Shown here in pieces: positions 2,696-18,692 of a stretch of 64,000 bases of DNA. Position numbers and translations under genes: made by a program. Positions within the stretch are counted from its first letter, which is position 1. Every line of letters starts with the position of its first letter. Below the pieces are notes generated by a model. The model saw only the letters and a program-made list of their open reading frames with translations. It had not been told where the DNA came from and did no database searches. The DNA comes from Phycisphaerales bacterium (lineage in GTDB: Bacteria; Planctomycetota; Phycisphaerae; Sedimentisphaerales; Anaerobacaceae): the NCBI GenBank assembly GCA_030602885.1, contig JAUVYV010000007.1, positions 1 through 64,000 on the forward strand, read 5' to 3'.

Positions 2696-4288
2696 CTACC
2701 AGAACTTGATGTAGATAGCGACCATGACGGTGACCCAGACGGCACACCACAGCCAGAGGTTCTTGTACCATGGGTAACCGAGTGCGAGCTCGGCTTCGGG
2801 CAGCTTCATCATCGAGGGACGCCAGACAAGCCCTTCTATCTGTTCGGGTTTGGGCGGCTTAGTAACGAGACTGAGCAGGGCTACGAAAACAAACGAGACA
2901 ACGAAGATAACGCCTGCCAGGTTGTACTCGTTCATCTGCCAGCCATAGCCCTGTTTGCCTACAAGCATCACGTAGGGCAGGACAAAGAGCGGCAATACAA
3001 GGAGCAGTCCCCATAATGCAGCGGTGTGTGTGGTTCGCTTCCAGAGGACGGCAAGAAGGAAGACGGCAGCGACGGGAGCGGCGATGAAGAACCAGCACTT
3101 CTGGAAGAACTCGAAGATGGAGCCGAACTGTCCCACCATGGGCGCCCACAAGGTGCCTACGATAAGGATGGTGGCGCTGGCCCATCGGCCTACCGTGATG
3201 AGCTTCTTGTCGGGCGTGTCCTTAAAGAATCTTGTGTATAAGTCCAGGGTGAAGATTGCGGAAGAAGAATGCATCAGTGCTTCAATTGTACTCATAACGG
3301 CCCCGCACAGGCCTGCCAGGACCAGGCCCTTGAGTCCGGTGCTGACAAGCTGTTTGACAACGAAGGGATAGGCAGTGTCGGGGTTCTCGAGATTCGGGTT
3401 GAGTGCATACGCGATGAGGCCGGGGAATTCGACGCAGAGACCGGTCAGAATCATTAAAAATCCGAGGAAGATTATACCCATTTTGCCGTCCCAGCGTGAT
3501 TTTGCCCCGAGGCAGCTCTGGACGATGGCCTGGTTGGTGCAGAAGTACCAGATGTTGGTTGAAAAGACGAGGACGACTATTGCCGTCCAGGGCAGCTCCG
3601 GATGGCTTCGCGGCAGGATGAGGTGGTTTCTTGCATCTTCCTCGGCCCAGAGGATTGCGCTGAGGCCTCCGGGGATTTTGTTAATGGCGAGGAAGAAGAC
3701 AAGGATGCCTGAAGCAAGCAGGAGGATTGCCTGAAACGTCTGTGCCCAGGCCACGGAAATCATCCCGCCGTAGATAGTAAAGCCTCCGGCCACGATTGCC
3801 ATGAGCCAGATGCCGCTCTGGAGAGGGATTGCCGGGAAGATTTCGTTCAAAAGCAGCCCGCCCGTATAAAGAACCCCGGGCAGAATGATAAAAACCGCCG
3901 CGAGGATACTGATAGCTGCATAAAGGTTACGAGGGCCGTCGCCGAATCGCTTTTCGAGATAGCCGGGCATCGTGACTATTCTCTTATTCAGGTAAATGGG
4001 CAGGAAAATCCAGAGCAGTATCAGCATCGCTGGCCAGTTACACCACTCCCAGTTGAAGACGACGATTCCCCAGCGGTGTGTGAAGCCAGCCGAGCCGACA
4101 AACTGCTCGGTGCTTATGGAAGAGGCGACCATTGCGAATCCGATGACGTACCAGGGCAGACGGCTTGATGTAACGAAGTAATCGCGTGCGGACTCCTTCT
4201 TCTTTCGGCCCATATAAAAGCCGATGAGAACAACGATGACAAAGTAGGCAACGAAAACGCCGGTATCGAGAACGCCGATTTCCTCCAT
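2696..4288 (-). CDS. Sodium:solute symporter (SSS family)
   Basis: 530 aa, multi-TM, GFYMGRKKKESARDYFVTSSRLPWYVIGFAMVASSISTEQFVGSAG typical of SSS. Confidence 0.9.
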   Translation of the reverse strand: MEEIGVLDTGVFVAYFVIVVLIGFYMGRKKKESARDYFVTSSRLPWYVIGFAMVASSISTEQFVGSAGFTHRWGIVVFNWEWCNWPAMLILLWIFLPIYLNKRIVTMPGYLEKRFGDGPRNLYAAISILAAVFIILPGVLYTGGLLLNEIFPAIPLQSGIWLMAIVAGGFTIYGGMISVAWAQTFQAILLLASGILVFFLAINKIPGGLSAILWAEEDARNHLILPRSHPELPWTAIVVLVFSTNIWYFCTNQAIVQSCLGAKSRWDGKMGIIFLGFLMILTGLCVEFPGLIAYALNPNLENPDTAYPFVVKQLVSTGLKGLVLAGLCGAVMSTIEALMHSSSAIFTLDLYTRFFKDTPDKKLITVGRWASATILIVGTLWAPMVGQFGSIFEFFQKCWFFIAAPVAAVFLLAVLWKRTTHTAALWGLLLVLPLFVLPYVMLVGKQGYGWQMNEYNLAGVIFVVSFVFVALLSLVTKPPKPEQIEGLVWRPSMMKLPEAELALGYPWYKNLWLWCAVWVTVMVAIYIKFW

Positions 4289-4300
4289 GGGTAACTCCTG

Positions 4301-5800
4301 TTATAATGCAAAACACCTTTCGTTTGCTTCCACGAACTTCTCGAAGATAGTCTGATATGCTCTGACATTCTGCTCGATGGGTACTACAACGGATTCGGTC
4401 TGTACTATACTGTCGGCGGCCTGCTCGAAGCTGTCGAATATCCCTATTGCCCTAGCCTGCAGGATGGCAGTGCCCACCGCCGCCGCCTCCGCACACTTCA
4501 TCGTTGTTACGGGCTTGCCCAGGATGTCCGCTTTTATCTGATTCCAGAGCCGGCTTTTTGAGCCTCCGCCCAACGACCGAATCTCTTTGCATTCAAGGCC
4601 GAGTCGCTCCATCTCGGTGATATATTGTTTCAGGACAAATCCTATTGACTCCATCACCGCCCTGGCGAAGTGCGGGCGGTCGTGGTGCAGCTCGAGTCCG
4701 CAGAATACGCCCTTTGCATCGGCCCTGATGTCACCGGTGCCGGGTCCCGCGAGGTACGGCAGGAAGATAAGCCCCTGACTGCCCGGCGGAATTTCAGCCG
4801 CCAGCGCAGTCATCCGGTCGTAGGCATCTGCCCCCGTCCCGGCTGCCCGGTCTTTTTCTGCTGTGAAGAATACGTCCCGGAGCCATTTGAATGCCATTCC
4901 TCCGGTTGGGCACCAGCCAATGAGGAAATACTCGTCGGGTATGGCGTGGTATTGTACTGCCATACTTCTCTTCCCGCTTTTGTCGGGGAAGGACGCGATG
5001 GTTCCGCAAACGGCCAGGGCCGCTCCGGTCGTCTCGGTGACGATGCCGCTTTTTATATTGCCGGCTCCAATCATTGCTGCGGTCTGGTCCATCGCCCCGG
5101 TGACGACCTTTGTGCCGGCGGCAAGGCCGGTCTGTTTGCACACGGACGGCTGCACCTCGCCGATCACTTCGCCCGATTCACACAGTTCAACGAGCATCTC
5201 GGTCGAAACGCCAACGTAGTCAAGAATCTCGGCCCACCACTTTTTGTTTATGATGTCGAGCATGAACGATGAGGTGTAGAGCGAGTACTCGCCTTTGAAC
5301 AGTCCCGTCAGGCGGTACAGGATATAGTCTTCGGGAAGGAGGAACTTGCGAGTCTTCCGGTAGGTGTCGGGCTCATTCTTCTTCAGCCAGAGCATCTTGG
5401 TGATTGGCCAGGTGGCTACGACATCCAATTGGCCGGTATTGTTCTCCGTCTTCAGGGCGGCCTTTATCTCTTCGGCTTCTCTGCCCGAGCGGTTGTCCAT
5501 CCAGACAATGGCGTTGCGCAGGGTATTGCCTTGCTTGTCGAGGCAGATCAGCGTTTCGCCCTGACTGCAGATGCCCACAGATTTGATTTGCGCAGTGGGG
5601 ACTTTGGATTTTTCCAGCACCTCTTTGATGCCTTCGACGCAGCAGTTCCAGTAAATCTCCGGATTCAATTCGACAATATTCTCGGCGGGCGTATGCAGGG
5701 TGTATTCTCTCGTCGATATGGCGCCGACCTCGCCGTCGCTGCCGACGAGAGCAACCTTCACCGACGTCGTGCCGATATCGAGTGAGATGAAGTGATCCAA
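4301..5800 (-). CDS. xylB: FGGY-family carbohydrate kinase, xylulokinase-like
   Basis: MDHFISLDIGTTSVKVALVG, IVWMDNRSGREAEEI, GAMDQTAAMIGAGNI, GGGSKSRLWNQIKADILG. Confidence 0.85.
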   Translation of the reverse strand: MDHFISLDIGTTSVKVALVGSDGEVGAISTREYTLHTPAENIVELNPEIYWNCCVEGIKEVLEKSKVPTAQIKSVGICSQGETLICLDKQGNTLRNAIVWMDNRSGREAEEIKAALKTENNTGQLDVVATWPITKMLWLKKNEPDTYRKTRKFLLPEDYILYRLTGLFKGEYSLYTSSFMLDIINKKWWAEILDYVGVSTEMLVELCESGEVIGEVQPSVCKQTGLAAGTKVVTGAMDQTAAMIGAGNIKSGIVTETTGAALAVCGTIASFPDKSGKRSMAVQYHAIPDEYFLIGWCPTGGMAFKWLRDVFFTAEKDRAAGTGADAYDRMTALAAEIPPGSQGLIFLPYLAGPGTGDIRADAKGVFCGLELHHDRPHFARAVMESIGFVLKQYITEMERLGLECKEIRSLGGGSKSRLWNQIKADILGKPVTTMKCAEAAAVGTAILQARAIGIFDSFEQAADSIVQTESVVVPIEQNVRAYQTIFEKFVEANERCFAL

Positions 5801-5810
5801 CTCCCTCTCC

Positions 5811-7175
5811 TTACATTCCTTCGTAAACGAGCTCGACGCCCAATAGCTTGCACAGATATGTCATTTCCACCGCCCAGTCGCCGTACACAATAGAGAAATG
5901 CTGTGCAGGCACGTGGTCCACGAAGTGCTTCAGCGTCCCGTCCAGGACAATCTCAACGCTCGGATGCATCCCCGGCTCTTCGAAGCCGACCTCAATCCAC
6001 TTCCTTGCTTCGACCGCTTTGCCTGTCACCATGTGAATCTTCGGTACTCCACCTGAGACATAAGGTCTGATCATCGTAACTCTGCCTGTCTTCATCTTCG
6101 AGCAGTTCATCAGCCCTTCCCACGGGTCGGTCGTGAAGAGCTTGCCTTGTTTTTGTCCCTTGATCATCGAAGGCGGCAGGAATCCGCAAACGCCGAACAG
6201 GATCCGGTCGTCCCAGAGCTCATACGATTCGACAAATGTGGCGACCTCGTCGCTGACGGAATTCAGGAGCACATGTCCCAGCATCCCCGCTATATCGTTT
6301 TCGCAAACATAAAAGCAGTCATCGCCGACGAGGGTGCCTATCATACAGGGTGCACAGCTCATGTGTGACATCATACCTTCGACGCACTTGAGTGATATGG
6401 CGGAGAGTTTCTTTTCCCTTATGATTTTGCGGACGGCGAGGGTGAGGGAGGCGACCCTTTGGAGTGTTTCGTCTTTTGGTTTTTGGCCTAAGAACTTCCA
6501 TTCCTTCTTCAGCTCAGCCACAAGTCTGTTTGCCTGCGCTTTGCCTACAGCCGCCGCCTTATTCTCGACCTCGAGCATGTCGAAGAAATCAGTTTGAACG
6601 CCAAAAGTGTTGCGCAGAAGCGTTTTGTCCATGTCGGTGGTGTACAAACCCATGTCGCCGAAACCCATGCTGCCGAGGCGTTTGCTCTTCAGGTCGTTGA
6701 CCGCTTTTGCTGCCTTCGCAAACTGCAATATCTCACCGACCTTTGTATCGGTATCCGGCGGCTCATGTAGAAAATCGAATTCGATCCCCGCAGCCCGCAT
6801 CGGCTCCAGTATCCCCGGTGCTCCCGCCCCTGCGGCAGGTGTGAGAATATATCCCTGCTTTTGCGTCCTGCCGCCTGTGGCGTAGAGCAGCATCGGCAGA
6901 TGCTTGTTGGCGAGCAAAAAGGGCATCGCGCCCCTGGCATCCAGCCAGCTTGCCACGACAACAAGAAGCAGGTCACAGCCCTTCGGCGAAAATGCTTCGA
7001 TCGCCGCCTGCCCCTGTTCGTAGTTCTGCACCTTCGGGATTTGTCTGAATGTAAACGCTCCTGTCTTCTGCAGGTCCTTGCGGACACGGGCGGTTATCTT
7101 ATCGACGAAACCCAGGGAATATCCCTCGTATCCAAGTCCGACGATACCGGCGACGATTCTTTTTCGGTCAGCCAT
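5811..7175 (-). CDS. L-fucose/L-arabinose isomerase-like family protein
   Basis: 454 aa; overall fucose-isomerase-like pattern; sits with sugar kinase and symporter in one operon. Confidence 0.7.
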   Translation of the reverse strand: MADRKRIVAGIVGLGYEGYSLGFVDKITARVRKDLQKTGAFTFRQIPKVQNYEQGQAAIEAFSPKGCDLLLVVVASWLDARGAMPFLLANKHLPMLLYATGGRTQKQGYILTPAAGAGAPGILEPMRAAGIEFDFLHEPPDTDTKVGEILQFAKAAKAVNDLKSKRLGSMGFGDMGLYTTDMDKTLLRNTFGVQTDFFDMLEVENKAAAVGKAQANRLVAELKKEWKFLGQKPKDETLQRVASLTLAVRKIIREKKLSAISLKCVEGMMSHMSCAPCMIGTLVGDDCFYVCENDIAGMLGHVLLNSVSDEVATFVESYELWDDRILFGVCGFLPPSMIKGQKQGKLFTTDPWEGLMNCSKMKTGRVTMIRPYVSGGVPKIHMVTGKAVEARKWIEVGFEEPGMHPSVEIVLDGTLKHFVDHVPAQHFSIVYGDWAVEMTYLCKLLGVELVYEGM

Positions 7176-7247
7176 TGTATATCTCCTGCAATGTTTGGTC
7201 CTGCCTGAATCCTCATCAGATTACGCAAAATCTTAGTTGCGTGCCAT

Positions 7248-7292
7248 TATACGAAATGTTAAATTGTGTTCAAGTGTGTTTTTTAATAACAT
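7248..7292 (-). promoter_or_regulatory. Promoter/operator copy 1 (sigma70-like, -strand)
   Basis: Reverse strand: TTGAAC-16 bp-TATAAT; 42/45 identical to the reverse complement of 13819-13863; 5' of the isomerase operon. Confidence 0.75.
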
Positions 7293-7322
7293 TTTATTGC
7301 CGCCGGGCCAGAGAGTTAACAA

Positions 7323-7410
7323 CCACGGGTTAAAACCCGTGGCATAGCCGGTTCGGGCTTTGCCCGTCCGCCTTTGGCGGGTAACTTCATCTACGGGTTG
7401 AACCCCGTAG
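7323..7410. repeat. Cluster of short hairpins (ccacgggttaaaacccgtgg; cgggctttgcccg; ccgcctttggcgg; ctacgggttgaaccccgtag)
   Basis: Consecutive perfect or near-perfect inverted repeats in an intergenic region. Confidence 0.75.
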
Positions 7411-7492
7411 AATTGCGGCGGAAGATTAAAATTGTAAAGCGTGAACAGATAGGTTAAAATCCAGAAAAATTGGGTGAAGAAGGAGACAAATA

Positions 7493-8797
7493 ATGGGTCA
7501 CAAAACACATGACAAATCGGGCAGATTATCCCGAAGGGATTTCATCAAGACCTCCACGGCCGTTTCATTGGCGGCTCTGGGCTCCGGGGCAAGCAAGGTA
7601 TTTGCTGCCGGCTCGGAAAAAATACGGTACGGGATAATAGGTTTTGGAGGCCGTGCCTCCGGAGCGGCAAGCAACGCCGTCTTCGCCGACCCCGCTGTAG
7701 AAATCGTCGCTGCGGCGGATATGTTCGACGACCATATCGACAAATCGCTCAACAAGCTCAGAAATGGATCGCAGTGGGTCACCAAGATACCGAGCGAGAA
7801 ACTCAAGATAACCAAAGACACCAGGTTCACCGGCTTCGACGCATATAAGAAGCTGCTCGAATGCGACGTGGACGTCGTCATCCTGGCCTCGTCGCCGGGC
7901 TTCAGGCCCAGACACCTCAAGGCTTGCGTCGAGGCGGGCAAACACATCTTCATGGAGAAACCCGTTGCGGTGGACCCTGTCGGCGTCCACTCGATAATAG
8001 CTTCCTGTGAAAAGGCCAAGGAAAAAGGGCTTACCGTCGTCGCCGGGACCATGAAACGTCACGACCCCTCTTACATTGAAATCATGGAGCGAATTCATGG
8101 CGGAGCCATAGGCGAGCTCGTGGCAGGCCAGTGCTACTACAACACCGGCCTGCTCTGGATCCATCCCAGACGGCCCGAATGGTCCGACATGGAATGGCAG
8201 ATTCGTAACTGGTATTACTTAACATGGCTTTCCGGCGACCATATCGTCGAGCAGCACATCCACAATATCGATGCGCTCAACTGGGCATTCAACGGCCATC
8301 CGGTCAAGTGCCTCGGCGTGGGCGGCCGAGAAGTTCGTACCGATCCGAAATGGGGCAATATCTATGACCATTTCACGACCGAGTTCGAATATGCCAACGG
8401 CGCAAGGGTCATGAGCATGTGTCGCCAGACGGACGGATGCAGCGACCGCATGTCGGAGAGAGTCGTTGGAACAAAGGGCGTTGCGATTCTGGAAAGACGC
8501 GAAATCCAGGGCGAAAATGCCTACAAGTACGAGGCCGAGCGCGTTGACCCATACATTCAGGAACATAAAGACCTGATTGAAAGTATGCGCCAGGGCAAGG
8601 CCGTCAACGAAGGCCAACAGGTTGCCGAAAGCACTCTCACCGCTGTCATGGGCAGGATGAGCGCCTATACAGGCCGAGAACTGAAATGGGACTGGGTTAT
8701 GAACGCATCCAAGCTCGACCTGATGCCGGAAAAACTCGAGTTCGGCGATTTGCCCGTCAGGCCGGTAGCTGTACCCGGACAAACACAGTTAGTCTGA
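7493..8797 (+). CDS. Gfo/Idh/MocA family oxidoreductase with Tat-type signal
   Basis: SRRDFIKTSTAVSLAALGSG leader; IRYGIIGFGGRASG; CVEAGKHIFMEKPVAVDP. Confidence 0.9.
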   Translation: MGHKTHDKSGRLSRRDFIKTSTAVSLAALGSGASKVFAAGSEKIRYGIIGFGGRASGAASNAVFADPAVEIVAAADMFDDHIDKSLNKLRNGSQWVTKIPSEKLKITKDTRFTGFDAYKKLLECDVDVVILASSPGFRPRHLKACVEAGKHIFMEKPVAVDPVGVHSIIASCEKAKEKGLTVVAGTMKRHDPSYIEIMERIHGGAIGELVAGQCYYNTGLLWIHPRRPEWSDMEWQIRNWYYLTWLSGDHIVEQHIHNIDALNWAFNGHPVKCLGVGGREVRTDPKWGNIYDHFTTEFEYANGARVMSMCRQTDGCSDRMSERVVGTKGVAILERREIQGENAYKYEAERVDPYIQEHKDLIESMRQGKAVNEGQQVAESTLTAVMGRMSAYTGRELKWDWVMNASKLDLMPEKLEFGDLPVRPVAVPGQTQLV

Positions 8798-9113: not shown

Positions 9114-10772
9114 ATGAATCCAAAACTTGCACTTCTGACACTAATTAGCATTTTATTGACTTCAGCAGGCGCGCAGGAAGAGATATGCTCGCACAAGGTT
9201 CAGCGCGACGCCAGCGGCAAAATCCTTGCCTGGCATGCCCCACAGACCCCCGGCGCGGGATACGTCCACGTCTGCAAACTGGCTTCGGAGTTTATCAAGT
9301 CGGGTACGCCCGCGGACCCGAAGACCGGCAAGAAATTGTATCTGCTTTACTGCTGCTTCGATGGTCCTCATATCAAGAGTCAGGAGGCCTTCGATACCGG
9401 CAAGACAGCGGGGGGCTGGATGCACAATCCTGCGTGTGTCTATGCCGGCCTCGTGCAGGGTCTGGTCCTCGACTGGCGTGTTTTTACCGGCGACGATTCA
9501 TATATCGATGTTGTGCGTGAAATGCTCGACCACCAAATCGACTTCGGCAGCACAGAACCCGACTGGAAATGGCCGAATGTCCCTTACGCCAGCTCCGACC
9601 CCGGCGAAGTCGTCTATGTTGGCGCCACTAAGTGGGAGCACGAGGCGATGCGAGGCGAAGGTCTGCACGGCATCGAGCCGGACAAACTCGGCGAGCTCGG
9701 TATTGGGTATGTGAAGTTCTATGAAGTTACCGAAGAGAAAAAATATCTCGATGCGGCCATTCACTGTGCCGATGCACTCGCCAAACATGCAAGAGTGATT
9801 CCCGAAGACCCCAATATTTTCTTAGGGCCGCAAGCCGACAAGTCTCCCTGGCCTTACCGGGTCAACGCGAGGACAGGTGTTGTTATATCTGAGTACTGCT
9901 CGAATGTGATTGAGCCGATCCGCCTCTTCGATGAGCTTATCAGAATAAAGAATCGCATAGGACTCAGCGATGAGAAAGTCGGCGCCTACCAGAAGGCAAG
10001 AGATATTGCGTGGAAATGGCTTTACTGCAGGTATGGGCCGATGAAGACCTTTATCTGGAATGCTTATTTTGAGGATGTCCCCAACGACCCGGGCAGGTTG
10101 AACAGAGTCCAGATTACTCCTCTCGAAACAGCCCGCTATCTGCTCAAGCACCCTGAGATGGATCCTGATATCGCCTCGAATGTCCCCGCCCTGATTTACT
10201 GGGTGGCCGGTGCGTTTGCGACCGAAGGTATGGATGCCATTAAGGAGCAGACCTGGTGCTATGAGCCGATGGGCAGCCATACGGCCCGATACGCATCGAT
10301 TTGCGCAATGTGGTATGAGCGCACGCGCGACCCGTACTTCAAAGAGCAGGCTTACCGCTTCTTCAATTTCGCCTCCTATATGACCTACGACAGCGGCGTA
10401 GTGGCAGTAGGACCCAGATGGCTCGGCTCGTGGTTCTCCGATGGGTATGGTGATTACATTCGTCACTTTATGGAAGGCCTGGCCGCGATACCGGAATGGG
10501 CGCCCGCCGACGAAAATCACCTGCTCCGTTCAACGTCTGTTGTTCAGAAAATCAAATACTCATCTAATCGAATTGAGTATAAAACCTACGATGATGACTC
10601 AACGGAAGTGCTTCGCATAACATCAAAGCCAAAAAAGATAACGGTAAACGGCAAAGGAATCGAGCTTCGAACCGACCTCAACGCCGAAGGCTGGACATGG
10701 CAGCCGCTCAAAGAAGGTGGCGTACTTAAAATCAGACACACCGAAGGCCCTGAAATAACCATAAACATGTAA
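9114..10772 (+). CDS. Secreted hypothetical protein, possible six-hairpin glycosidase-like fold
   Basis: Signal peptide MNPKLALLTLISILLTSAGAQ; repeated aromatic helical hairpin-like segments; fold call is inference. Confidence 0.5.
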   Translation: MNPKLALLTLISILLTSAGAQEEICSHKVQRDASGKILAWHAPQTPGAGYVHVCKLASEFIKSGTPADPKTGKKLYLLYCCFDGPHIKSQEAFDTGKTAGGWMHNPACVYAGLVQGLVLDWRVFTGDDSYIDVVREMLDHQIDFGSTEPDWKWPNVPYASSDPGEVVYVGATKWEHEAMRGEGLHGIEPDKLGELGIGYVKFYEVTEEKKYLDAAIHCADALAKHARVIPEDPNIFLGPQADKSPWPYRVNARTGVVISEYCSNVIEPIRLFDELIRIKNRIGLSDEKVGAYQKARDIAWKWLYCRYGPMKTFIWNAYFEDVPNDPGRLNRVQITPLETARYLLKHPEMDPDIASNVPALIYWVAGAFATEGMDAIKEQTWCYEPMGSHTARYASICAMWYERTRDPYFKEQAYRFFNFASYMTYDSGVVAVGPRWLGSWFSDGYGDYIRHFMEGLAAIPEWAPADENHLLRSTSVVQKIKYSSNRIEYKTYDDDSTEVLRITSKPKKITVNGKGIELRTDLNAEGWTWQPLKEGGVLKIRHTEGPEITINM

Positions 10773-10783
10773 GCTCAAAATCA

Positions 10784-12067
10784 CTAAACAAGCTGCCGGT
10801 CGAGGAAATCGATCTCCTGCTGTTTGTCCCAGTAGTCAACGGTTTTCAGTGGCGTGTGCTTGATGTGGGGGTAGAGAATCGCCTTACCGTCTATTTTGGT
10901 CTCTTTGATCATCCTGAGCACATCGACGGCGTTATCGAGTGAGCCGACCGCAGCGACGTAGTTGCCGGGGTCGATTTCTTTGTTCTTAATCGCATCGAGT
11001 GTCGCAGCCATGTCACTGGGGTCGCCGCCGCTTGAACCCACAACCTTGATTTCGCGGTAGTGAACGGCTATCGCGTCAAGCTCCAGGATATGCTGTCCGC
11101 GAGGCAGTCCGCCAAACAGGTTGGCCACACCGCCAGGTGCGAGCAGACCGAGTGCCTCCTGCTGAACAGGCCTGATACCTACCGCAAGTATGATGTCATC
11201 TGCTCCCTTGTTTCCTGACAGCTCTTTGACGGTTTGCCCGAGCTTGTCCGCGGTTATGCAGACAAGCCGGACTTCGGATTCTTTGGCCTTTTGGCCGATT
11301 GCGATTACTGTTTTGTCGAGCCGCTCCTGCTGGAGGTCTGAAACAATCAGGGTAGCGGGCTTGAAACGCAGGGCCAGCTCGGCGTGCATTCTGCCCATGG
11401 CGCCGGCGCCGACTATCACAGTGACACCACCCGGCAGTATGCCCATATGCGGCCTGCGCTCGGCAAACGGGCTGTCCTTGAGTGTGTGATAGTTTCTCTG
11501 CTGCGCAGAATAAACGCAGCTTACTGGTTCTGCCATCGAAACCTCAAAATACGCCATCTCATCATCGGGCAGCGGCAGCAGGCATTGGCCCCGCAGCACC
11601 TCCTCCTGGATACAGATGTATTGAGCGAGATGGCCGGGCAGCGAATAGCCGACGCCGCACTTGAACATACCCTCGCCCTTGTTGTTATACCTCTCCCTAT
11701 GCACAATCGGCCCGACATTTACCGCGGGCTGAATTGCGTAACGGGAACCCGGCTTGTACCTGTCTTTGAGGTTCTCGCCGACTTTGACAAGTGTTAGCGA
11801 GCCCTCGTCGCCTAAGATCAACGGCCACTTCTTCATATCCCAGCCGTTGATGTAAGTATGCTTTTCGCCCTGCTCAATCAGTTTCAGGATACTCGTGCAC
11901 ACCCCTGCTGCATCGACGCGGGCCAGAAGCTGGTCGGGCCAGATTTGCGGCACAGGTATCTCGGCCACCCTCAAATTCTCAAAACCCGTCCCTGCGGCAA
12001 TCACCGCCTGCATCGTTTCCGGTATCGCATAGTCAGTATTGCTTCTGTATTTTGCATACTTAGGCAT
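10784..12067 (-). CDS. Zinc-type alcohol dehydrogenase-like (MDR family) protein
   Basis: RVDAAGVCTSILKLIEQG, VIVGAGAMGRMHAELALRFKPATLIVSD, LFGGLPRGQ. Confidence 0.8.
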   Translation of the reverse strand: MPKYAKYRSNTDYAIPETMQAVIAAGTGFENLRVAEIPVPQIWPDQLLARVDAAGVCTSILKLIEQGEKHTYINGWDMKKWPLILGDEGSLTLVKVGENLKDRYKPGSRYAIQPAVNVGPIVHRERYNNKGEGMFKCGVGYSLPGHLAQYICIQEEVLRGQCLLPLPDDEMAYFEVSMAEPVSCVYSAQQRNYHTLKDSPFAERRPHMGILPGGVTVIVGAGAMGRMHAELALRFKPATLIVSDLQQERLDKTVIAIGQKAKESEVRLVCITADKLGQTVKELSGNKGADDIILAVGIRPVQQEALGLLAPGGVANLFGGLPRGQHILELDAIAVHYREIKVVGSSGGDPSDMAATLDAIKNKEIDPGNYVAAVGSLDNAVDVLRMIKETKIDGKAILYPHIKHTPLKTVDYWDKQQEIDFLDRQLV

Positions 12068-12133: not shown

Positions 12134-12946
12134 TTACGACAGGCCATGTCTCTCCGCAGCTTCCGCCGGGCTGATATTGTTCTTAACCACGTCGAGCAGT
12201 GCCTTCTGCAGCTCCAAAGGTTTGTCTGACTGAATGACGTACCTGCCGAAGACTATACCTGCCGCTCCGGAATCGACCTGCTGCCGTGCGAGTTTCAGCG
12301 CATCAAGGTCGCTGCCAAGGCGTTTTCCGCCGAGTGCCAGTATGGGCGTCGGACAGCTGGCTGCCACCTGCTCAAAGTCCTTCGTATAGAACGTCTTTAT
12401 TACATCGGCGCCGAGCTCATAAAGTATTCTTGCACCAATCTTTATCTCACTGTAGAGTTCATCGGCGCTCATGTTCTCATCATCAACCGGGAAATACTCA
12501 CCTATCACCGGCAGGGACAATTCGTGTGCCTCCGTGCAGAGCTTTGCGAATATCTCCACGTTCTTCGCGTCGCGCTGCTCGCTTGCGGTCTGCAGCGTGA
12601 GCGAAATGAGGACCATCTGAGCACCCAACTGTAATGCCTGCTTCGGCGTATAAACCTGCACCGTGCTGCCTGAATGATAATCCCAACTGAAGCAATATGT
12701 CGAAGACCAGTTGATTCTCGTTATCGGCATCGGACTACCGCGATGGCCGCATAGGTCCGGCCCGATATCCCTCAGCATACCCGGCGACATCAAAACTCCG
12801 TCGATCTCCGGCAGTATCTTTCCCGGAATCTCCGCCACCTTGTCCACACCGGTTATAGGCCCGTCAAAGAATCCGTGATCAAACGCGACTACTATCACCG
12901 GGCCCGTACTGAAGAAACGTGATAAAAACAGGTTGTGACTTTCCAC
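12134..12946 (-). CDS. Class I (DhnA/LsrF-type) aldolase
   Basis: VIVAFDHGFFDGPI, VLMSPGMLRD, YELGADVIKTFYTKDFEQV, ILALGGKRL, GAAGIVFGRYVIQ. Confidence 0.8.
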   Translation of the reverse strand: MESHNLFLSRFFSTGPVIVVAFDHGFFDGPITGVDKVAEIPGKILPEIDGVLMSPGMLRDIGPDLCGHRGSPMPITRINWSSTYCFSWDYHSGSTVQVYTPKQALQLGAQMVLISLTLQTASEQRDAKNVEIFAKLCTEAHELSLPVIGEYFPVDDENMSADELYSEIKIGARILYELGADVIKTFYTKDFEQVAASCPTPILALGGKRLGSDLDALKLARQQVDSGAAGIVFGRYVIQSDKPLELQKALLDVVKNNISPAEAAERHGLS

Positions 12947-12965: not shown

Positions 12966-13748
12966 CTAAGCCAATTCGAGTTTCACCTTTTTCCTGGTCA
13001 GTTGTTTAGATATCTCTTTGTCAATCTTTCTGTCAGTTATAACAAGATCGTAGTCGCGACAGCCGAACACCTTGCACATCGCCGTTCTGCCGAACTTGCT
13101 GCTGTCGGCGACGACAATCACCTTTTTTGCATTTGCAGCCATTTTTTTGTCAAGGTTTGCGACGCGCAGGTCGTCGGTGTAGGTATTGCCGATACTGTCA
13201 ACGGCATCGGCGCCCATGAAAGCGACATCGGTGCGGAAGAGCTCGACGTTCTGCTCGGTAAGAGGCCCGTGCAGATCGGGTGAGCCGCCTCGCAAGAATC
13301 CCCCTAAAAGAACCACCTCAACGTTCGGGGCAAACTGTACCTTCGAGACAATTGCAAGCGAGGTGGTAATAATAGTGATGTTCTTCTTGCCGGTCAGCTC
13401 TTCTGCAATCTGCAGTGTGGTCGTGCCCGTGTCGAGCATTATCACCCGGCCGTCCCTGACGTGTTTGACCGCCTGTCGTGCTATTCGCCTCTTTTGCTCA
13501 ATGTTCCTGTTCTGTTTGTTGCGGAACGAAAACTCAAAAGTGAGTCTTTTTGCCGGTGTCGCCCCACCATGAGTCCGGATTACATCGCCCTGAGATTCCA
13601 GGACTTCCAAATCCCGCCGAACAGTCATCCCGCTGACGCCGAATCTACGAGCGAGCTTCTCAATCGAGACCTCTTCGCCGTCCAGCAGTTTCCCGCGTAT
13701 CTCCTCGATACGCTGATTCTGGCTTGGTTTATTGCCTTTCTTTGCCAT
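12966..13748 (-). CDS. DeoR/GlpR family transcriptional regulator
   Basis: VSIEKLARRFGVSGMTVRRDLEVLESQGDVIRTHGGA; C-terminal DeoRC-type VIMLDTGTTTLQIAEEL. Confidence 0.92.
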   Translation of the reverse strand: MAKKGNKPSQNQRIEEIRGKLLDGEEVSIEKLARRFGVSGMTVRRDLEVLESQGDVIRTHGGATPAKRLTFEFSFRNKQNRNIEQKRRIARQAVKHVRDGRVIMLDTGTTTLQIAEELTGKKNITIITTSLAIVSKVQFAPNVEVVLLGGFLRGGSPDLHGPLTEQNVELFRTDVAFMGADAVDSIGNTYTDDLRVANLDKKMAANAKKVIVVADSSKFGRTAMCKVFGCRDYDLVITDRKIDKEISKQLTRKKVKLELA

Positions 13749-13818: not shown

Positions 13819-13863
13819 ATGTTATTATGAAACACACTTGAACATAATTTAACATTTCGTATA
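13819..13863 (+). promoter_or_regulatory. Promoter/operator copy 2 (sigma70-like, +strand)
   Basis: TTGAAC (13838-13843)-16 bp-TATAAT (13860-13865); 42/45 match to reverse complement of 7248-7292. Confidence 0.75.
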
Positions 13864-14005
13864 ATTGATTGCAAGGCCGTTTTTCGGGAAAAATTTCCAA
13901 AATTGCAGAAGTGCAAACACCCAGGCCGGTAAAGCGATTCCAATAAGAGCATGTTTGGTGAACGATATAAATACCGCCGATGGCATGGCAGTGAAAGGTG
14001 CAAAA

Positions 14006-15364
14006 ATGTATGATCCTGCTGCGTACAGCATCGATTTGAATCAGTGGCCGAACGTCAAAGTCACACCGCCAGGACCTGAGAGCGAGCGACTGCACGGCAG
14101 GGCTTCGGCGATAATGAAAGGGCTGTCAGGGCAAGTCCGGCTGTTTCCGGTTGTCTTCAGCGAAGGGAGGGGCTGTACGCTGACTGACGTTGACGGCAAC
14201 AGATACATCGATTTTTCAAGCGGCATATACGTTACAACGCTCGGCCACTGCCACCCTAAGGTAAGCGAAGCCGTGGCTAAATGGGCAGGGCGGTTGATGA
14301 ACGCTCACGATTTCACAACGCCGGTTAAAGTCGAGCTGCTCGAAAAGCTGCTTGAGGTGCTGCCCAAGGGCTATGGCGGGGTTCAGTTGTATGATTCAGG
14401 GACTACGGCCGTCGAAGCCGCCCTGCGTACCTGCAGAGCTGCTACGGGAAAGCACGAGTTTATCTCCTGCTTTATGGACTTCCACGGCAAGAGCGGCCAC
14501 GCGGTTTCCCTGGCTCGAATGAATTCGTTCTACGGGCCGACGCGGGCGCCGGGCTTCTATATGGTGCCGCGCCCTGATACGTATAGGCCGTGGTGGACAA
14601 GGACGGACGGCAGTCTGGATACGGAAAAGTATCTTGAATTTTACGATGAATTCATCAAAGAGGGCACAACCGGCCAAATTGCCGCCTTTGTTCTTGAGCC
14701 AATCCAGGGCTGGGGCGGGACGATTATGCCGCCTGACGACTTTTTCGGCAAGCTTCGTAAGTTCTGTGATGAGCGAAAGATACTGCTCGTTGCCGACGAG
14801 GTCCTGACGAGCATGGGCCGAACGGGCAAGTACCTCTGTATGGAGCACTGGGATGTGGTGCCGGACGTCGTAACTTTAGGCAAGGGCTTCGGGAACGGCT
14901 TTCCGGTAACGGCAATGGTGGTCAAAGAACAATACGCTGATGCTGTGGACAAGATAAGTGCATCGACGAGCTATGGCGGCAACCCGATGGCCTGTGCCGC
15001 TGCGCTTGCCTGTATCGAGGTAATAGAAGAAGAAGGCCTGCTCGCCCACGCTACCGAGCTCGGCCAGTATTTCACCAAACGTATGACCGACTGGGTGAAG
15101 AAGTACGCTATTGTCGGCGATACCCGGTGCAAGGGCTGCCTTATGGGCGTCGAATTGGTCAAGGACAAGAACACGAAAGAGCCGTTCGATGAAGCCGGCA
15201 AAATGGTCTATCAAAAGGCGTTTACGAAGGGCTTGGCGTGGATACCGGCCGGCCATATACTGCGAATGAGTCCACCGATAATTATGCCGATGGACGTTGC
15301 CGCAAAGGCGATGGACATCATCGAAGAAGCGATCGCAGAAACGCAGAAAGAACTCGGATACTGA
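14006..15364 (+). CDS. Class III aminotransferase (aspartate aminotransferase family/4-aminobutyrate-type)
   Basis: Start moved from 13865 (inside the -10 box) to ATG 14006 with upstream AAAGGTG (ATG 13985 also possible); GVQLYDSGTTAVEAALRTCRAATGK, LLVADEVLTSMGRTG, VTLGKGFGNGFP. Confidence 0.85.
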   Translation: MYDPAAYSIDLNQWPNVKVTPPGPESERLHGRASAIMKGLSGQVRLFPVVFSEGRGCTLTDVDGNRYIDFSSGIYVTTLGHCHPKVSEAVAKWAGRLMNAHDFTTPVKVELLEKLLEVLPKGYGGVQLYDSGTTAVEAALRTCRAATGKHEFISCFMDFHGKSGHAVSLARMNSFYGPTRAPGFYMVPRPDTYRPWWTRTDGSLDTEKYLEFYDEFIKEGTTGQIAAFVLEPIQGWGGTIMPPDDFFGKLRKFCDERKILLVADEVLTSMGRTGKYLCMEHWDVVPDVVTLGKGFGNGFPVTAMVVKEQYADAVDKISASTSYGGNPMACAAALACIEVIEEEGLLAHATELGQYFTKRMTDWVKKYAIVGDTRCKGCLMGVELVKDKNTKEPFDEAGKMVYQKAFTKGLAWIPAGHILRMSPPIIMPMDVAAKAMDIIEEAIAETQKELGY

Positions 15365-15380: not shown

Positions 15381-16229
15381 ATGAACAACGTAAGTCGAAG
15401 AAAATTCATGTCAGGGGCAATAGCAGCAGGAGCCGGGTTGGCTGTCGCGCAGTCAGTTAAGGGGCAGGAACAAAAATCTAACGTAAAAAAATGGCGATGG
15501 GAGCAGATGCGTCCTGACGATCTGAAAGAGGCGATCGCGGAGCGGCCTGTAGCGTGGATTATGTTTAGTCCGCTGGAGTGGCATGGTGAGGCCATGTCAT
15601 TCGGGTGCGATCCCATTATCGGGCAGACGGTGGTTGATAAAGCGTGGGAGAAAGTTGGCGGCGTGCGTATTCCGACGATCTACATAGGAGCGGAGACGGA
15701 CTACAAATACTGGGGCGAAAAAGGGCTGATGAGTCACTGGGGGCTGGAGCAGATAACGGAGGAGCATAATCCGGGTTCGCTGTACGTTCGGCCTATCACG
15801 CTGCAATTGGTGGTGGAAGATTATCTGTACTTCCTTCAGCGCGAGGGATTCAAGCTGGTTGTGGTCTCGACCGGTCACGGGGCGACCGAGCATATCAAGG
15901 TGCTGAATGAAGTGTGCGGTCGATATAAAGATGGTCCGATGAAGGTTATGTTCGGGCGAGGGTCCAGACGCACCAGGATGCCGGAGGAATTGCGTTTTGA
16001 AGGGTCCGGCGGCCATGCCGATTTCAGTGAGGCAAGTCTGCTCGGCGGCGTGGACCCAAACCTGGTGGATAAGAGCAAGTTCGGCGTGATTGAGCGTGAC
16101 CGGAAGGTGAAACTGCTGAAAGAGAATGTGGACAAGATCGATTTTGAGAAAGGCCGTAAAATCATCGAATTCAGGGCAAAACAACTTGAGATGAATGTTA
16201 AGGAGATTCTAAAGGAGCTGGGCTACTAA
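15381..16229 (+). CDS. Creatininase family protein with Tat-type signal
   Basis: NNVSRRKFMSGAIAAGAGLAVAQ leader; PLEWHGEAMSFGCDP, STGHGATEH, GGHADFSEASLL. Confidence 0.8.
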   Translation: MNNVSRRKFMSGAIAAGAGLAVAQSVKGQEQKSNVKKWRWEQMRPDDLKEAIAERPVAWIMFSPLEWHGEAMSFGCDPIIGQTVVDKAWEKVGGVRIPTIYIGAETDYKYWGEKGLMSHWGLEQITEEHNPGSLYVRPITLQLVVEDYLYFLQREGFKLVVVSTGHGATEHIKVLNEVCGRYKDGPMKVMFGRGSRRTRMPEELRFEGSGGHADFSEASLLGGVDPNLVDKSKFGVIERDRKVKLLKENVDKIDFEKGRKIIEFRAKQLEMNVKEILKELGY

Positions 16230-16389
16230 ATTGTTGCAAAGAGTCCCGACGGGTCGGGATGAACTCCGGAGCACCCCAGCCAGAGGCATGCCGGAGCAGG
16301 TAAGAGCATATAAGTGCTGGGGGCAAGAAAAGCAGGGCCCTGCGTGGGCAATCCCGCCAAAGAACGGGATTAAATAGAGTTGATTGCAT

Positions 16390-17538
16390 ATGCGGACGCT
16401 GCGATTTGGGATAATCGGCTGTGGTCTGATGGGGCGGGAATTCGCCAGTGCCGTTGCGCGCTGGTGCCATCTTACGGATATGAACATCAGGCCTGAGATT
16501 GTAGCGATATGCAATCGGACGCTCAGCCCGCAACGAATCGACTGGTTCAAAGACAACTTCACATCGATAAAGCAGGTCACAAGTGACTACACGGAACTGC
16601 TGGCAAATGACGGTATAGACGCGGTTTACGTAGCCGTGCCGCACAATATGCACGAGGAGATTTACTGCGCAGCACTGGAGGCCGGCAAGCACCTTTTAGG
16701 CGAAAAGCCGTTTGGTATAGACTTAGCGGCCAATGAGGCGATTCTTGAGGGCATAAAAGTTAATCAAAGATGTCACACTGGCTGTGCGAGCCAGTATATC
16801 TATTATCCTGCTGTTCAGCGGATATTGCAGATGGCGGAGGAAGGGGCTTTTGGGCGGATAATGGAGGTTGAGGCGGGCTTTCTGCACAGCAGCGATTTGA
16901 ATCCGAACAAGCCGATAAACTGGAAGCGCACAATAGAGGCCAACGGCGAATACGGTGTAATGGGTGATTTGGGGCCTCATATTGCACTGGTGCCGTATAG
17001 GTTGGGCTGGGTTGTTGAGAATGTCGGTGCAATCTGCTCGAACATAGTCAAGGAACGGCCTGATGGGACGGGCAAGCGTGTGCCGTGCGAGACGTGGGAC
17101 AACGTCATTATGCTGTGTGAGGCGCGCGACACAAGAGACGATGCAGCTTTCCCGTTAAGAATGCGGCTGGCGCGTATAATGCCGGGCGAGATGAATACGT
17201 GGTATCTGAAGATATTCGGCACTAAGGCGAGCGCTAAATTTTCGCTCAGAAACCCGAAATTGCTTCAAATACTGCGTTTTACGGGGGGTGAACAGGTCTG
17301 GGAAGATATCGAGATGGGATTTCAGACGGCATACAGGACGATTACGGGTGCGAATTTTGAGTTCGGCGCGACGGATGCGTTTATGCAGATGATGGCGGCG
17401 TTTATGTACGAAGTCTCGCACGGCAAAGAGCTTAGCAACACAGCCAAATGTTCGACGGCAGAGGAGATGCATGGCTGTCACCGATTGTTCACGGCAGCAC
17501 TGGAATCACATAAGACGGGTAATACAGTGAAGATATGA
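16390..17538 (+). CDS. Gfo/Idh/MocA family oxidoreductase
   Basis: MRTLRFGIIGCGLMGREFASAVARW; ALEAGKHLLGEKPFGID. Confidence 0.9.
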   Translation: MRTLRFGIIGCGLMGREFASAVARWCHLTDMNIRPEIVAICNRTLSPQRIDWFKDNFTSIKQVTSDYTELLANDGIDAVYVAVPHNMHEEIYCAALEAGKHLLGEKPFGIDLAANEAILEGIKVNQRCHTGCASQYIYYPAVQRILQMAEEGAFGRIMEVEAGFLHSSDLNPNKPINWKRTIEANGEYGVMGDLGPHIALVPYRLGWVVENVGAICSNIVKERPDGTGKRVPCETWDNVIMLCEARDTRDDAAFPLRMRLARIMPGEMNTWYLKIFGTKASAKFSLRNPKLLQILRFTGGEQVWEDIEMGFQTAYRTITGANFEFGATDAFMQMMAAFMYEVSHGKELSNTAKCSTAEEMHGCHRLFTAALESHKTGNTVKI

Positions 17539-18692
17539 GAACAGTTAGGTTTGGCATAATCGGTTGTGGCCTGATGGGGCGCGAGTTCGCCAGTGCCGCT
17601 GCACGCTGGTGCCATTTGCCGCAAATGCAGGTCAGGCCTGAGGTTGTGGCGGTGTGCGATGCCAATGAAAAGGCAATGGAGTGGTTTGCAGACTGTTGCA
17701 GTTCCGTCAGGCAGAAAACGTGTGATTACCGTGAATTGCTGGCGAATGAGGATGTCGAGGCGGTTTATATTGCTGTACCACACAATCTGCACGAGGAGTT
17801 CTATATCGCGGCATTAGAGGCGGGCAAGCACCTGATGGGTGAAAAGCCGTTCGGCATAGACAAAAAGGCCAACGATGCGATAAATGCCGGCATCGGCAGG
17901 CATCCGGAGCTGTTCGTGAGGTGCTCATCGGAGTTTCCATTTTTCCCGGCTATGCAGCGGATAGGGCGGATGATAGAGCGGGACGAATTTGCTGAAATAA
18001 TAGAGGTCAACAGCGGCTTTGTGCATTCAAGCGATTTGGACCCGGACAAGCCGATCAACTGGAAGAGAATGGTCGAATACTGCGGCGAATACGGCTGTCT
18101 GGGTGATTTGGGGATACATCCGTGCCATACGCCTTTTCGGGCGGGCTGGCTGCCGTCGAGCGTCAGGGCGGTGCTGTCGAACATTATGACGGATAGGCCG
18201 GATGGGAAGGGTGGCAGGGTTCCCTGCGAAACCTGGGATAATGCGACGCTTCTCTGTAAAACGGACGAGCCGAAGACGGGAAAGATGTTTCCGATGACTA
18301 TAAAAACTCAGCGCATAGCTCCGGGCGAGAAGGATACGTGGTATTTCGAGGTGATGGGGACGAAAAAAAGTGCGAAGTTTTCGACGAAAAACGCCAATTC
18401 CATTGAGATTATGGAGTACACGGGCGGCGGACCCCTTGGGGGCAGGCAGGCGTGGCAGCAAATCGATATGGGCCACGAGGTGACGTTCAAATCGATAACA
18501 GGGGGAATCTTTGAATTTGGGTTTTCAGATGCGATATTGCAGATGTGGGCGGGGTTTTTGTATGAGCTTGACAGGGGCGAGCCGATGTGCAAATTTGCCG
18601 GCTGCGTCACACCTGCCGAGGCGGCGTTGAGTCATCGGCTGTTTACGGCGGCGATGGAATCGCAGGCGAGGGCGGCTACGGTAGCGGTGTAG
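17535..18692 (+). CDS. Gfo/Idh/MocA family oxidoreductase (tandem paralogue of preceding gene)
   Basis: MRTVRFGIIGCGLMGREFASAAARW; ATGA overlap with preceding gene. Confidence 0.9.
   Translation: MRTVRFGIIGCGLMGREFASAAARWCHLPQMQVRPEVVAVCDANEKAMEWFADCCSSVRQKTCDYRELLANEDVEAVYIAVPHNLHEEFYIAALEAGKHLMGEKPFGIDKKANDAINAGIGRHPELFVRCSSEFPFFPAMQRIGRMIERDEFAEIIEVNSGFVHSSDLDPDKPINWKRMVEYCGEYGCLGDLGIHPCHTPFRAGWLPSSVRAVLSNIMTDRPDGKGGRVPCETWDNATLLCKTDEPKTGKMFPMTIKTQRIAPGEKDTWYFEVMGTKKSAKFSTKNANSIEIMEYTGGGPLGGRQAWQQIDMGHEVTFKSITGGIFEFGFSDAILQMWAGFLYELDRGEPMCKFAGCVTPAEAALSHRLFTAAMESQARAATVAV

Follow-up and report, generated by a model that had tools for sequence, protein, structure and literature searches.

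A candidate DeoR operator within interlocked divergent promoter-like sequences, shared by putative sugar-catabolic operons of a Phycisphaerales bacterium

IolR, the DeoR-family regulator of the inositol regulon of Bacillus subtilis, has a tandem direct-repeat operator of 11-mers. Motifs of another member of the family, RhaR of rhamnose catabolism, consist of two imperfect direct repeats with a periodicity of 10-11 bp (PMC3870299). DeoR and CggR of Bacillus subtilis, both of the SorC family, are tetrameric repressors with extended promoter operators and sugar-phosphate effectors (PMC11229326). The locus described here lies in a window of 64,000 nucleotides (the whole stretch of DNA that was analysed) from a Phycisphaerales genome of 3.2 Mb in 128 contigs, 97.6% complete. 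It resembles local regulons of the DeoR/GlpR family such as that of RhaR in having an HTH_DeoR plus DeoRC repressor near an isomerase-kinase-aldolase-transporter set, as well as a direct-repeat operator of 10-11 bp period and few target operons. The operator repeat differs from that of RhaR, being TGTT/AACA in three direct boxes and one inverted box. Tandem direct repeats and a DeoR-family repressor are also shared with IolR, whereas the IolR 11-mers are of other sequence and the window genes do not form an inositol operon. In contrast to B. subtilis DeoR and CggR, which belong to a different family with a different effector domain, the window protein has a PF00455 DeoRC domain, and no SorC effector domain was found among its Pfam matches. 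Because the operator is of the RhaR style and both defining domains are present in the protein, the system is, on good sequence support, an ordinary regulon of an already known kind. What appears to be new lies in the details, namely the arrangement of three boxes plus one, the interlocked promoters and a possible copying of the whole cassette within the lineage.

The genes concerned are as follows:

2696..4288, minus strand: sodium:solute symporter (domain match)
4301..5800, minus strand: FGGY-family sugar kinase (domain match)
5811..7175, minus strand: sugar isomerase, first gene of the site-1 operon, weakly like L-arabinose/sulfoquinovose isomerase
10784..12067, minus strand: zinc-type alcohol dehydrogenase (ADH), downstream of the aldolase
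12134..12946, minus strand: DeoC/LacD-family aldolase, whose 68% identical ortholog adjoins deoR in genome G153
12966..13748, minus strand: DeoR-family repressor, HTH_DeoR plus DeoRC (Pfam matches)
13985..15364, plus strand: class III aminotransferase, first gene of the site-2 plus-strand operon (start corrected from TTG 13865)
15381..16229, plus strand: creatininase-family protein (domain match)
16384..17538, plus strand: Gfo/Idh/MocA oxidoreductase 1 (domain match)
17535..18692, plus strand: Gfo/Idh/MocA oxidoreductase 2, its linkage to deoR and the aminotransferase gene conserved in five further genomes

Both family-defining domains are matched by the DeoR protein, PF08220 with E 1.7e-15 and PF00455 with E 2.2e-48, and its sensor domain matches the deoxyribose operon repressor of PDB 7l6l (E 4.3e-12). 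Its gene is linked to catabolic genes as deoR-aldolase-ADH with a divergent aminotransferase operon, a synteny that is conserved, and the aldolase is probably cotranscribed with deoR. The isomerase, FGGY kinase, DeoC/LacD aldolase, dehydrogenase and symporter suggest catabolism of a sugar or sugar derivative via a phosphorylated ketose. Against the sulfoquinovose isomerase SftI the isomerase scores 83 bits, with a cut-off of 700, and therefore no substrate is claimed. The mechanical ORF of the aminotransferase, which begins at TTG 13865, overlaps the -10 of a promoter-like sequence. Because alignment with homologs begins at about codon 51, the true start is likely ATG 13985 or 14006, which would leave a 5′ leader of at least 110 nt; the first 40 codons of the mechanical ORF (13865-13984) are probably untranslated leader. 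The two Gfo/Idh genes at 16384-18692 are adjacent and similar, and they are probably a tandem duplication, since each of five syntenic relatives has a single such gene, which is closer to the second copy.

Judging from the sequence, a 45-bp element found before both operons is very probably the operator of this DeoR, embedded in a promoter region. Its two copies in the window comprise the following features:

7237..7265, plus strand: interlocked promoter-like TTGCGT (7237)-17 bp-TAAATT (7260) with upstream TG, toward the Gfo/Idh gene 7493-8797
7246..7273, minus strand: promoter-like TTGAAC (7273-7268)-16 bp-TATAAT (7251-7246), toward the isomerase operon
7257..7292, plus strand: putative operator copy 1, TGTT at 7257-7260, 7267-7270 and 7277-7280, inverted TAACAT at 7287-7292 (exact pattern match)
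13819..13854, minus strand (toward deoR): putative operator copy 2, TGTT at 13854-13851, 13844-13841 and 13834-13831, inverted TAACAT at 13824-13819
13838..13865, plus strand: promoter-like TTGAAC (13838-13843)-16 bp-TATAAT (13860-13865), toward the aminotransferase operon
13846..13874, minus strand: interlocked promoter-like TTGCAA (13874-13869)-17 bp-TAAATT (13851-13846) with upstream TG, toward deoR

The initial annotation had matched 7248-7292 to the reverse complement of 13819-13863 at 42 of 45 positions, a count that held when checked base by base. Identity extends past this interval, which as drawn truncates the -10, through the full TATAAT (ending at 7246 and 13865) to give 44 of 47, and GCAA follows 5 bp beyond TATAAT in both copies. 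The second copy does lie upstream of deoR, between it and the divergent aminotransferase operon, 70 bp from the deoR start at 13748. The atgtta/taacat arms and tgtgtt repeats noted at the outset are present, but they are parts of an array of three TGTT/AACA boxes plus one. When the element is read toward deoR, all three copies in the genome have TGTT at 0, +10 and +20 and an inverted TAACA at +30, which on the reverse strand gives the four-block pattern TGTTA-N6-AACA-N6-AACA-N6-AACA. That the isomerase and aminotransferase operons have this promoter/operator in common, and that it is tied to the adjacent DeoR, is a proposal that the sequence supports.

Many unrelated copies across the genome were to have counted against the operator, an objection that does not arise because a sequence search of the genome found just one more. 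In the 64-kb window there is no other close match, the next-best having at least 18 mismatches. The third copy, on another contig (C85:75816-75874; L007 9817-9875), is 81% identical over 59 bp. It is flanked by genes for an ArsP-family permease and a DMFA2_C-domain protein, which have no obvious pathway link to the window operons. All three copies sit between divergently oriented genes. The proposal of one regulon across 2.7-18.7 kb stands insofar as both operons share the site; its limits do not, because the third site lies on another contig, and several genes inside that span, for example 9114-10772, are without a site of their own and would at most be candidate targets. A wider regulon in this genome was considered and rejected, as the four-block pattern with up to three mismatches gave 11 matches in total and its reversed control 12, so that the extras are at chance level. 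Both matches with two mismatches are one repeated sequence.

In 162 genomes of the order there are four occurrences of the exact four-block pattern, three of them here and the fourth in G007, the only relative in the set whose DeoR exceeds 60% identity. In G007 the distance from the first box to the ATG of the downstream kinase is 54 bp, and this kinase heads a kinase-isomerase-DeoR (64%)-aminotransferase-amidohydrolase-symporter operon. The recognition-helix string VSGMTVRRDL is common to the two DeoR proteins, where others in the alignment read (S/T)EMTI(R/H)RDL. Sites 44-66 bp upstream of kinase orthologs were found in four further genomes, one of them exact (G168, from another order) and three imperfect, with one mismatch in G117, three in G177, and in G153 no box 4 and only part of box 3. 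The contigs of G168 and G177 end before a DeoR could be seen. Direct repeats of 10-bp period (TGTT at 0, +10 and +20) are found at the three sites here and in G007 and G168. A class-wide scan with an extended promoter pattern returned G117 and five unrelated matches with three mismatches, and a scan of genome contigs with the DeoR protein gave two distant loci only and was uninformative.

A distant DeoR group, 41-45% identical, shows synteny with orthologs of the aminotransferase and the second Gfo/Idh gene, and TGTT-N6-TGTT-N15/16-AACA stands 44-62 bp before deoR itself in G037, G055, G040, G051 and G160. In 317 kb of loci this pattern has 12 matches, all regulator-linked, against 0.2 expected from a mononucleotide shuffle, an excess that is partly by construction because the loci include those that suggested the pattern; the distant DeoR group played no part in defining the boxes. 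Two other genomes, G063 and G107, keep the kinase-isomerase-aminotransferase-amidohydrolase-symporter operon. The DeoR of G063 is a C-terminal fragment (residues 181-259; L094 10855-11094) inside an otherwise intact operon, and its site has decayed; the kinase operon locus of G107 has neither DeoR nor site. These cases of joint loss of the site and the DNA-binding part of DeoR are few, two in number, and both are as predicted. The box repeats, their spacing, their conservation and their link to deoR and kinase operons can all be read directly from these genomes. The site might instead belong to another regulator of the same pathway, for example a second DeoR paralog or an unseen factor, which we consider unlikely. 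G117, with a site and no DeoR on its 7-kb contig, would fit this idea, but sites track DeoR orthologs across families and precede deoR itself in the distant homologs. Moreover, the genome encodes just two DeoRC proteins; the other one, on C60, differs in its HTH, and its locus lacks a phased TGTT pair.

The initial annotation placed TTGAAC-16-TATAAT in both copies, facing the isomerase (minus) and aminotransferase (plus) operons. The coordinates are confirmed, but this promoter-like sequence is interlocked with a second, divergent one. The latter, TTGC-17-TGTTAnnnT, faces deoR here and the kinase operon in relatives, where its layout recurs, and the predicted starts of the two lie about 31 bp apart and run away from each other. 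The conserved kinase operon of the relatives lies opposite to the side that TTGAAC/TATAAT faces. The TTGAAC-16-TATAAT hexamers and their spacing are also found in G117 and G153; the pair is absent in G168 and G177, which have TTGCAT-16-TATAAT and TTGACA-16-TAGACT, respectively, toward the kinase. Because these two genomes keep the boxes and the predicted deoR/kinase-directed promoter without TTGAAC/TATAAT, the former are the more widely conserved parts of the element. An explanation of the element as a duplicated strong sigma-70-type promoter, with incidental repeats and no specific regulator binding, could appeal to good hexamers on both strands and to the three copies. It is even less probable than a site for another regulator: the G168 boxes are exact while TTGAAC/TATAAT is absent, conservation tracks the TGTT/AACA phase and not the hexamers, and the site decays where DeoR is lost.

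If the element is the operator of DeoR, as we favor, we infer binding, repression, transcription in both directions and an effector along the following lines. DeoR subunits would bind TGTT/AACA quarter-sites one helical turn apart (0, +10 and +20) and the inverted box at +30, and would overlie the hexamers of the two interlocked divergent promoters. TTGAAC-16-TATAAT would drive the isomerase and aminotransferase operons, and TTGC-17-TGTTAnnnT would drive deoR and perhaps, in the case of site 1, the Gfo/Idh gene at 7493. Occupancy by DeoR would block polymerase both ways. DeoR would be freed from the DNA by an effector derived from a sugar, probably one of the phosphorylated intermediates in the isomerase-kinase-aldolase pathway, so that deoR would control, by repression, both itself and its catabolic operons. 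With the interlocked promoters, a single repressor would neatly shut off transcription in two directions at once. This branch of DeoR repressors, hitherto uncharacterised, now has a candidate operator in the element, which links three promoters and a putative sugar-catabolic gene set in one candidate regulon. Searches with the conserved site may reveal further targets, which in turn may point to the substrate.

More tentatively, a cassette of about 60 bp, with the operator of three boxes plus one and the interlocked divergent promoters, may have been copied within the lineage, recruiting operons to the DeoR regulon, although we would sooner bet against this than for it. The three sites here share 11, 14 and 15 of 24 non-core positions in pairwise comparison, and pairs involving other genomes share 2-12 of 24, nearly all of them 10 or fewer, which is suggestive only of such copying. 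If it did occur, the regulon grew by pasting a whole bidirectional promoter-operator and not by point mutation. A reading of the two inverted, near-identical copies (7.25 and 13.86 kb) as the terminal repeats of a mobile element of 6.6 kb was rejected as scarcely credible: single copies before kinases in other genomes keep the box spacing and not the overall sequence, the large ORFs between the two copies include no mobilisation gene, and a solitary third copy lies elsewhere in the genome.

Two further features of the window were observed. One is a GC-rich multi-hairpin repeat (7318-7425) in the interval from site 1 to the Gfo/Idh gene at 7493; none of 200 shuffles folds as well (z -3.6), and the genome has another copy of it, 82% identical, at C9:31430-31535. 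At 417-2355, a gene for an AAA_21 ATPase is followed by an overlapping gene for an RloB-like protein; PADLOC matches to AbiLi (E 4e-99) and AbiLii (E 5.8e-26) make this a probable AbiL-type phage-defence pair.
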